Origin: Pseudanabaena yagii GIHE-NHR1
GTDB taxonomy: Bacteria > Cyanobacteriota > Cyanobacteriia > Pseudanabaenales > Pseudanabaenaceae
Length of the DNA stretch: 64,000 bases
Reading direction: 5' to 3'
NCBI RefSeq assembly: GCF_012863495.1
Contig: NZ_JAAVJL010000003.1
Span: 62,001-126,000 of the forward strand
Shown here: positions 18,910 to 21,036 of the stretch, in pieces
Position numbering within the stretch: position 1 is the stretch's first letter
Layout of the letters: each line of letters opens with the position of its first letter
Notes under the pieces: generated by a model
Seen by the model: only the letters and a program-made list of their open reading frames with translations
Told to the model about the DNA's origin: nothing
Databases searched by the model: none
Translations under genes and position numbers: made by a program

Positions 18910-19494
18910 ATGAATAGCGAAGAAATACTCATAGAATTTGTGGCAAATAGCGCTCGCTCTAATGGTGAGTCGATCAAGTCTCTCAGCACCAATAAGGTTA
19001 AAGAGAGTATTCAGAAAATTGCCAACCTCGTCCAACAACTCGCAACTGAAAGTACTCCCAACCAAACTAATGGGCTAGCTCTAGATGAAGTTGAGGTTGC
19101 CATTAAGCTCACCGAGACAGGTGAAGCAGTTTTATTGGGCGACGGGCAAAGTAATGGCGCAATTACATTAAGATTTCGTCGTCCGAGCCATGTAGTTAGT
19201 AGTTCATCGCCTACTAGTGCAAATGACCTGACGATTCCTAGCCAAGGAATTAGCTACCAGAAATTACAGGCTTTGCTAGCTAGCGGTAAGTGGCAAGAAG
19301 CCAATCAAGAAACATGGAATGTGATGTGTCAAGCCGCAAACAAAAATGTTGGCTCAGTTCTATCTCCAGAGGATATTAAGCAAATTCCCTGTGAAGTCTT
19401 ACAAACCATTGATAATCTATGGCAGAAGCATAGTCAGGGTCGCTATGGATTTAGCTCTCAAAATCAAATCTATATGTCATCAATCATGGGCTAA
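18910..19494 (+). CDS. GUN4-domain protein, apparently lacking the C-terminal half of the domain
   Basis: A 194-residue protein. Residues 1-95 form an N-terminal alpha/beta region (QKIANLVQQLATES, LDEVEVAIKLTETGEAVLL). After a linker, residues 113-190 match the first half of a GUN4 domain: ISYQKLQALLASGKWQEAN, LSPEDIKQIPCEVLQTIDNLW and GRYGFSSQNQIY. GUN4 domains bind porphyrins; in Gun4 itself this stimulates Mg-chelatase. The usual ending, with an F.DRVGWR segment and an AP.GHLP motif, is missing: the frame stops right after QNQIYMSSIMG. A matching C-terminal piece is at the end of the next gene, in the same frame. A ligand role is inferred only. Confidence 0.8.
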   Translation: MNSEEILIEFVANSARSNGESIKSLSTNKVKESIQKIANLVQQLATESTPNQTNGLALDEVEVAIKLTETGEAVLLGDGQSNGAITLRFRRPSHVVSSSSPTSANDLTIPSQGISYQKLQALLASGKWQEANQETWNVMCQAANKNVGSVLSPEDIKQIPCEVLQTIDNLWQKHSQGRYGFSSQNQIYMSSIMG

Positions 19495-19638
19495 GAATCA
19501 CGGTCTAAAAATTTCTGCTCTAGGCATCCTAATATAAGGAGCATAGGATCGAAAATTTGGGACAAGTGAGAAGTAAGGATATTTTGCTTCGCCCAGCCTT
19601 TACTAAGTATTAACTTTAAGATTACAGGGGTCATTGTC

Positions 19639-20778
19639 ATGGATCAGGATAAGCAAAAGCAGATTACGATGTACTTCATCGAAGAAGCCAAGGAGCATCT
19701 GCAAACCATTGAGTCAGGACTACTTGATTTACAAACGATCATGGGGAATGCGGAGTCGGTAAATGAGGTGTTTCGAGCAGCCCACTCGATTAAGGGGGGA
19801 GCAGCAATGTTGGGGTTTAGTAGTATCCAACATGTTGCTCATAACTTTGAAGATTATTTCAAAGTTATTCGGGAAAATAGCGACTTTGAGGTTGATCAGC
19901 ATCTCCAAACGCTGTTTTTACAAGCTTTTGACAAATTACAAGAACTAGTGGAACTGCTCCAAAGTCCCTATGGACTGACTAAGGATGCTGTTGACGCTAT
20001 TATGGCTGGCTCCGATCAAATCTTTGCTAACCTCAAAGACCATCTGCAAAATTTGGTGTCAGGTCAAAACGTTGATACACAAACAGTGGTTTTGTCAAAA
20101 TCGGGGTCAAAGGTTGACACTAGAGCTATGTTGGCAACATTTCAGTCTGAAGTACCTCTTAAGCTAAGGAGTATGCTGGAATTGTTCAAACAGCCCGATA
20201 GCCCACGCAGTCGTCAGAATCTAGAGAATATCTGTACCCAACTACAGGAAATGGGCGATCGCTTTGGATTAGTGGCTTGGTCAGTCATGATTCAATCAGT
20301 ACGTTCGGCTGTCACCAATCCCAATAATCAATTTCGCGTCCTTGCACCAATACTGATCAAAGAGGTTAAGCAGGCTCAAGAGCAAGTTTTAGGGCAAAAG
20401 GCAAATGAAATTAAAGTCTCTCAACAATTGTTGCAGTTAATTCCCGCAGATACGGCAAGGCAAGCGATACCAACTAAGACTCCTGTGGCAGTGAGAGCTA
20501 CTTCTTCATCCGATGAATTGAGTAATCTTTTAGGCGCAGTGATTGAAGAAGATAAGGCGCTGCAAGGTTGGCAAACCTTTAGCGATCGCGTTGGTTGGCG
20601 ACAAAACGGTTCTTGGATTGCCTCTAATACTGTTCAGCCCCAGACTCCACCTGACGGACATTTCCCCACACCATTATGGTTGTCATCGTGGCATCAATCT
20701 AAAGATACGAAGGCAAAAGAGTTTCAAGCCCAGTATTTAACTTTCTTAGCTAAACTGTCGAGCTGCAATTTGCCATAA
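19639..20778 (+). CDS. Hpt-domain phosphotransfer protein with a GUN4-like C-terminal segment
   Basis: A 379-residue protein. The N-terminal Hpt domain has the phosphoacceptor His49 in FRAAHSIKGGAAMLGF, as in CheA-type chemotaxis and hybrid kinases. A linker and a second helical region follow (about 155-265, KLRSMLELFKQPDSPRS). At about 310-340 comes WQTFSDRVGWRQNGSWI, then PPDGHFPTPLW, which looks like the second half of a GUN4 domain, the part missing from the gene before. It starts 144 bp after that gene in the same frame. It should relay phosphate in a two-component system; no kinase or response regulator is nearby. The terminator at 20777 begins inside its stop codon. Confidence 0.82.
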   Translation: MDQDKQKQITMYFIEEAKEHLQTIESGLLDLQTIMGNAESVNEVFRAAHSIKGGAAMLGFSSIQHVAHNFEDYFKVIRENSDFEVDQHLQTLFLQAFDKLQELVELLQSPYGLTKDAVDAIMAGSDQIFANLKDHLQNLVSGQNVDTQTVVLSKSGSKVDTRAMLATFQSEVPLKLRSMLELFKQPDSPRSRQNLENICTQLQEMGDRFGLVAWSVMIQSVRSAVTNPNNQFRVLAPILIKEVKQAQEQVLGQKANEIKVSQQLLQLIPADTARQAIPTKTPVAVRATSSSDELSNLLGAVIEEDKALQGWQTFSDRVGWRQNGSWIASNTVQPQTPPDGHFPTPLWLSSWHQSKDTKAKEFQAQYLTFLAKLSSCNLP

Positions 20779-20833: not shown

Positions 20834-21036
20834 TATAGCTATATTCATCTGTATCATGACAAATCAAAACCCAAATAGTGTAAGGCGGCGCTTCGTGCCG
20901 CCTTACACTATTTGGGTTCAAGAATGGCGACAGCTATATGCGTTAACTCAAATGGCTATAGCTTATGAAGAGAAAGGTGGCGCGAAGCGCCACCTTTCTC
21001 TTCTTTTATGTCCTGATATACTTGGCGACAGCTATA
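20834..21036. repeat. Two adjacent MITE-like units with hairpin cores
   Basis: Unit 1 (20834-20938) and unit 2 (20955-21036) each begin with TATAGC and end with GCGACAGCTATA, so their tips are inverted repeats. The cores are different long hairpins: 20868-20918 has 24-nt arms with loop TTC, and 20967-21003 has a perfect 17-bp stem with loop GAA. Unit 2 also has TGTCCTGATATACTTGG before its right tip, resembling the TGTCCTAAGC of the element at 60452. Only hairpin DNA fills this gap between the Hpt and DUF3352 genes; open frames here are by-products. Confidence 0.7.

Follow-up and report, generated by a model that had tools for sequence, protein, structure and literature searches.

Two adjacent genes of Pseudanabaena yagii GIHE-NHR1, here called p1 and p2, appear to encode separate proteins that share one GUN4 domain, and the complex built on that domain probably couples an Hpt carrier to a Pepco protein. 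Both genes lie on the forward strand of the window (the whole stretch of DNA that was analyzed, 64,000 nucleotides of contig NZ_JAAVJL010000003.1), p1 at 18910–19494 and p2 at 19639–20778, where the original prediction had placed them, with 144 nt between them (19495–19638). In the arrangement that we favor, p1 would give the first ∼84 positions of GUN4 behind its Pepco domain and p2 the rest behind its Hpt module. The half-domains are predicted, from a structural model, to dock noncovalently into a complete GUN4 fold, and the rebuilt domain would act as an obligate coupling joint through which a phospho-accepting Hpt module, with a presumptive role in phosphorelay, is brought to the Pepco protein and its putative partners.

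Domain content of p1 and p2

The 194-residue p1 begins with a Pepco domain (residues 14–91, 18949–19182; PF24393, E 1.8e-9), which had been missed in the original prediction and which Pfam finds in 35/38 p1 orthologues at E ≤ 0.01; NCBIfam has no name for p1. The remainder of the chain (residues 112–194, 19243–19491) is the first half of a GUN4 domain, as originally proposed. PF05419 covers profile positions 4–84 of 141 with E 7.4e-26, after which the chain stops, and this N-terminal part of GUN4 is matched in 38/38 p1 orthologues. A Pfam search at E ≤ 10 found GUN4_N (PF16416) in neither p1 nor p2.

The 379-residue p2 carries an Hpt domain of the CheA P1 type (residues 12–101, 19672–19941; PF01627, E 5.2e-17) that is matched in all 38 p2 orthologues and aligns with CheA P1 structures at up to Z 16.6–16.7. 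The HSIKG motif is present in 38/38 p2 sequences, and its histidine, His49 (codon 19783–19785), is invariant; from what we know of CheA P1 domains, we take it to be the phospho-acceptor. A second helical bundle follows (residues 157–254, 20107–20400), whose HPt-like match to 1sr2 (Z 10.2, 88 residues, rmsd 3.1) is only suggestive, as befits a helical bundle. This bundle also resembles the HPt folds 1wn0 and YPD1, is by eye devoid of HxxKG, and may be a degenerate second Hpt. Next come a linker motif, DELSNLLG (residues 292–299, 20512–20535), which is like the linker motif of the large CheA of the order, and the second half of GUN4 (residues 308–379, 20560–20775), made up of profile positions 87–129 plus a C-terminal helix. 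Kinase, dimerization, ATPase, CheW, and receiver domains are absent from p2 in a Pfam search, and the NCBIfam CheA models match its N-terminus only, far below cut-off.

The original prediction had recognized the missing half of GUN4 at the end of p2, and this holds, with a signal that is weak in the window itself. PF05419 reaches E 0.045 on the whole protein (profile 87–124) and E 0.005 on the tail alone (profile 87–129), both below the curated cut-off. Among the p2 orthologues, 29/38 match GUN4 at E ≤ 0.01, the best at 2.2e-7, and the p2 of the window is one of the nine misses. We rely on a profile of the tail built without ordinary GUN4 sequences from 34 of the 38 p2 tails (G015, G020, G022, and G025 were omitted as close to others). 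Against the PDB, it retrieves 1z3x and 1z3y at E 0.0037 and 1y6i at E 0.33 (unrelated chains begin at 0.48); in 194 genomes of the class, the C-terminal halves of GUN4 that it retrieves outside the order have a best per-genome E of 5.3e-12. In all 10 fetched matches from outside the order, the first half of a GUN4 domain immediately precedes the matched segment, in one case (L194) across a frame change. The motif G(H/Q)(L/F)P(T/A)P(L/I/V/M)W is carried by all 38 p2 tails and by none of the 38 p1 proteins. An alternative raised with the original prediction was that this segment is a usual ending of the Hpt family. Outside the order, the segment was observed on GUN4 domains and was found neither on 14 stand-alone-type Hpt proteins (the tail profile matches 0/14 of their frames) nor on the CheA N-termini examined. 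On these profile comparisons, we regard the p2 tail as a genuine GUN4 half despite its own weak match. We note that the L194 gene, which is caspase-like, is cut in the middle of GUN4 by the frame change, and this may be a sequencing error or real.

A split conserved across the order

The survey set consists of 38 genomes from 8 genera of the order Pseudanabaenales, the order name being inferred from named contigs; where p2 found contigs in named genomes, 16/22 were named Pseudanabaena. The p1 gene is present in 38/38 genomes, and p2 lies directly downstream on the same strand in 38/38, with a gap of 8–201 nt. A GUN4 domain of this locus on one continuous polypeptide was not found in any of the 38, each of which has two open reading frames. 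The split point is constant: p1 ends behind a G(R/K/H)(Y/F/H)GF helix in 37/38 genomes, and the 38th is one letter off. Profile coverage of the two proteins is complementary, with the break between GUN4 positions 84 and 87.

The shared strand and reading frame of the two genes had also been pointed out. The strand is common to the order; the frame is shared in the window, as originally described, but only 12/38 genomes have a gap length divisible by three, and the shared frame is a matter of chance that carries no information. All 12 in-frame cases retain at least the stop codon of p1, and in G029 and G033 it is that stop alone. A single chain made by read-through or a programmed frameshift was rejected: the gap is in frame in only 12/38 genomes, those 12 keep a p1 stop, and in all 38 the open frame that contains p1 spans 163–231 residues, which leaves no fused frame.

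Both halves of GUN4 are under purifying selection. In 13 pairs that we picked among the 38 genomes, dN/dS (Nei-Gojobori) is 0.00–0.19 for the p1 half and, in the 12 of 13 pairs giving a value, 0.00–0.15 for the p2 half. Conservation of the split in 38/38 genomes, taken together with this selection, argues that p1 and p2 are not a broken gene. The locus also looks vertically inherited, since at least one of the two genes upstream of p1 is matched in 41/42 loci checked (the exception is L094, in G028). These two genes are presumably RNase R-like and CLC-like.

The complete proteins appear to belong to the order. In a profile search of 388 genomes, full-length p1 matches (starting at positions 1–7) are confined to the order among the matches listed; the match in one order genome, G027, starts only at 114. 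Among the listed matches from outside the order, those to p1 start at position 78 or later, except in G088, G257, and G283, where they start at 35–36. Of the loci in this set, Pfam identifies L161 as a kinase-GUN4 fusion; L162 and L163 each consist of one long frame that ends in GUN4. Full-length p2 matches are likewise confined to the order among those listed, and those from outside end at ∼272–299 of 369, except in G226 and G161, where they reach 335. These two extended matches take in the linker only, and the GUN4 tail profile finds nothing in either protein.

A scan for a promoter between p1 and p2 was at background, with 5 found against 4.5 expected, and such a scan says little for cyanobacteria. 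Between p2 and the next gene lie two long palindromes with GC-rich cores, at 20870–20916 and 20967–21003. The genome has 10 copies of the core of the first, this site included, which marks it as a dispersed repeat; it is perhaps also a terminator.

Predicted reassembly of GUN4 and the alternatives

The pairing of the two halves was modeled with AlphaFold2 as one covalent chain, in which the read-through p1–p2 translation of the window, with stops entered as residues, provides an artificial linker. The alignment of 64 rows combined 12 read-through pairs with 26 p1 and 26 p2 sequences. Block means of confidence in this model are 80–95 for the p1 half (residues 111–190) and 69–92 for the p2 half (residues 551–620), and the pTM is 0.35. 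By prediction, a complete GUN4 fold is built from both halves within this single chain; a failure of the halves to pair, which would have spoken against the original prediction, is not what the model shows. With VIA-align 2, GUN4 structures align over model residues 108–622, the best being 4xkb and 4xkc (Z 17.7, 144 residues, rmsd 2.3), and further matches are 1z3x (17.2), 1y6i (16.9), 4ykb_B (16.2), and 7e2r_A (15.5). The aligned range of 4xkb ends at 233, its chain end, which indicates that the p2 tail would supply the C-terminal helix of GUN4 too. Foldseek listed only short GUN4 alignments (82–110 columns, E 0.023 or worse), in which the composite match did not stand out clearly.

The control was p2 modeled alone from the same 38 p2 sequences. 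The block means of its tail are 77, 67, 57, 64, 67, 80, and 69 (mean 68.7), as compared with 89, 87, 69, 92, 87, 88, and 87 (mean 85.6) when p1 is present; the Hpt blocks, unlike the tail, gain nothing from p1. No GUN4 chain is among the 50 matches listed by VIA-align for the p2-alone model, where absence is not exclusion according to the tool. AlphaFold2 may know GUN4 folds from PDB entries, and the docking is hence not independently proven by the model. Covariation of rates was considered as a sign of contact between the halves and rejected for want of specificity, with a partial r of 0.315 for GUN4N-GUN4C versus 0.390 for GUN4N-Hpt.

Two alternatives do without reassembly. After the split, the halves could have been taken into separate use, the p1 half as a small helical partner domain and the p2 tail as an unrelated docking tail. 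The p2 tail in the window has diverged from the consensus of GUN4 (Pfam E 0.045), and the GUN4N-GUN4C covariation is no higher than that of other pairs, as such separate use would allow; set against these points are the occurrence of the halves together in 38/38 genomes, a model that rebuilds the whole fold to the chain end of 4xkb, and the dependence of the confidence in the p2 tail on p1, and we consider separate use unlikely. To the second alternative, a remnant in which insertion of an Hpt gene into a GUN4 gene left both pieces decaying, or an assembly error, we give practically no credence. The p1 half does end abruptly in mid-domain, but the recurrence of the same split in 38/38 genomes of 8 genera refutes decay or misassembly, and against them also stand the dN/dS of 0.00–0.19 in the chosen pairs and the fact that p1 falls to 34–45% identity with the p1 of the window in other genera while both frames are still open.

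Tetrapyrrole sensing, by contrast, is compatible with the shared-domain complex that we prefer: the rebuilt GUN4 would bind a porphyrin or bilin and thereby set Hpt phosphorylation or the assembly of p1 with p2. GUN4 orthologues bind porphyrins and bilins, according to PMC8967248 and PMC10156173, and a role as tetrapyrrole sensor is suggested for GUN4 in fusion proteins in PMC7159879. Placed without gaps from GH(L/F)P against the canonical GUN4 of the window's own genome, the equivalents of Asn211 and Arg214 of the LxNxLR motif (Synechocystis numbering) are absent from 38/38 p2 tails, in which L/I/M/V stands for the Asn and A/S/E/P/V/K for the Arg. We take R211 of Arabidopsis to be the equivalent of Arg214. 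According to PMC8967248, that Arabidopsis residue matters for porphyrin binding; in PMC10156173, Asn211 is tied to bilin binding, and paralogues are reported to lack the motif and proposed to have lost bilin binding. The latter paper also reports that N219G in Chlamydomonas GUN4 leaves porphyrin binding intact, so a missing Asn leaves porphyrin possible for the pair. The original prediction had the halves reassemble as a porphyrin-sensing pair; the fold prediction and its control support the reassembly, and the substituted residues make tetrapyrrole sensing, and with it this kind of ligand control, rather doubtful.

We also entertain, tentatively, the possibility that the locus is a natural split-protein switch. 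Assembly of the GUN4 halves, perhaps gated by a ligand through a remodelled pocket, might then decide whether the CheA-related Hpt carrier is held by the Pepco protein, whose kind also occurs next to a caspase-GUN4 gene, and so link photosynthetic or conflict signaling to motility. Were this reading true, a 5′ CheA fragment would, by jumping into a GUN4 gene, have made a two-component coupling out of a single sensor domain.

Probable origin from the large CheA and relation to known proteins

The Hpt module of p2 is kin to the large CheA of the order. In a tree of 22 of the 38 p2 modules, 14 stand-alone-type Hpt loci, and 20 CheA-type N-termini, all p2 modules form one clade (support 98/95), which has seven large-CheA N-termini of the order as its neighbors; the support for this placement, 81/92, is below the tool's mark for strong support. 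Eleven of the 14 stand-alone-type loci form a clade of their own, and the other three fall among the large CheAs. The large CheA of the window's genome (2011 residues; Hpt, H-kinase_dim, HATPase, CheW, and receiver domains) is encoded beside MCP, CheW, and receiver genes. Its N-terminus in the order has the Hpt domain, second helical bundle, and linker motif seen in p2; p2 differs in having no dimerization, ATPase, CheW, or receiver domains and in ending in a GUN4 half. The linker motif, which follows the pattern (D/E)(D/E)(V/I/L)S.(I/V/L/F)(F/L) and was defined after the sequences had been inspected, occurs shortly before the GUN4 piece in 34/38 p2 proteins (absent in G030, G031, G059, and G060), in 6/7 CheA N-termini of the order, and in 0/27 other Hpt or CheA sequences. 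Its position in the six CheA N-termini is 18–20 residues into the searched stretch in three and 49–62 in the others. A Mg-chelatase-like gene (L220:12069–13592; Pfam Mg_chelatase, ChlI), which we assume to be of the ComM type, is found close to the large CheA cluster in the same genome.

These comparisons suggest that, long ago, a stop-less 5′ fragment of CheA probably landed in a GUN4 loop. Such a fragment has a start and no stop, so a single insertion would suffice to truncate the GUN4 front half and to fuse the back half to what was inserted. In the ancestor of the order, then, a copy of the large CheA 5′ end would have entered a loop of a Pepco-GUN4 gene, leaving p1 with a truncated GUN4 and p2 as a CheA fragment continued by the rest; we infer this event as the one that accounts for all the pieces together. 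Insertion of an Hpt gene within a GUN4 gene had been put forward as the simpler reading of the locus. It survives as an account of the origin, in keeping with the CheA-like Hpt domain and linker, and is incomplete for the present state, in which the split is kept in 38/38 genomes.

The locus is apparently a case in which two genes each encode part of a single globular signaling domain and this division has persisted throughout an order; the 5′ CheA fragment and its linker still allow the dividing event to be read. It offers a testable pair for the making of an obligate protein complex by gene insertion. In the open-access literature, no split GUN4 or GUN4-Hpt protein was among the matches listed; literature searches found no paper on Pepco and, among the matches listed, nothing relevant on split domains in cyanobacteria. 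GUN4 fusions with kinases, caspases, trypsin, and TIR are known (PMC7159879), and a phosphorelay protein would join this list of GUN4-bearing signaling proteins.

The window's genome has seven further GUN4 domains, each of which runs from profile position 2–6 to at least 124 in one frame. The GUN4 orthologue, the Mg-chelatase cofactor, shares its core-domain fold with the p1–p2 model (1y6i, 4xkb); an intact orthologue-like gene with GUN4_N (L001) is present separately in the window's genome, whereas p1 and p2 are without GUN4_N and p2 is without the LxNxLR residues. In other cyanobacteria, 7/12 fetched outside-order p1 matches, the best-scoring included, look like Ser/Thr-kinase-GUN4 fusions, an identity that Pfam confirmed in 3/3 tested. 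These fusions have a C-terminal W...L..C stretch that by eye is like the end of p2, but their GUN4 is one continuous chain, in contrast to the domain divided between p1 and p2. The 14 stand-alone-type Hpt loci of other cyanobacteria, of which at least L126 is cut by a contig end, encode proteins that are like p2 in length and in having Hpt plus a second bundle, and the matches of these proteins to the p2 profile end at 269–312 of 369. At one of the loci (L121), a GUN4 protein is encoded on the opposite strand.

The domain order of p1 has an operon-like relative in the same genome. At L002 (region C2:206726), a caspase-GUN4 gene is immediately preceded by a separate Pepco gene, and the stop-to-stop frames of the two overlap. 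Here, unlike in p1, which holds Pepco and half a GUN4, the two domains belong to different proteins and GUN4 is undivided; the neighborhood indicates that Pepco and GUN4 keep company elsewhere too.
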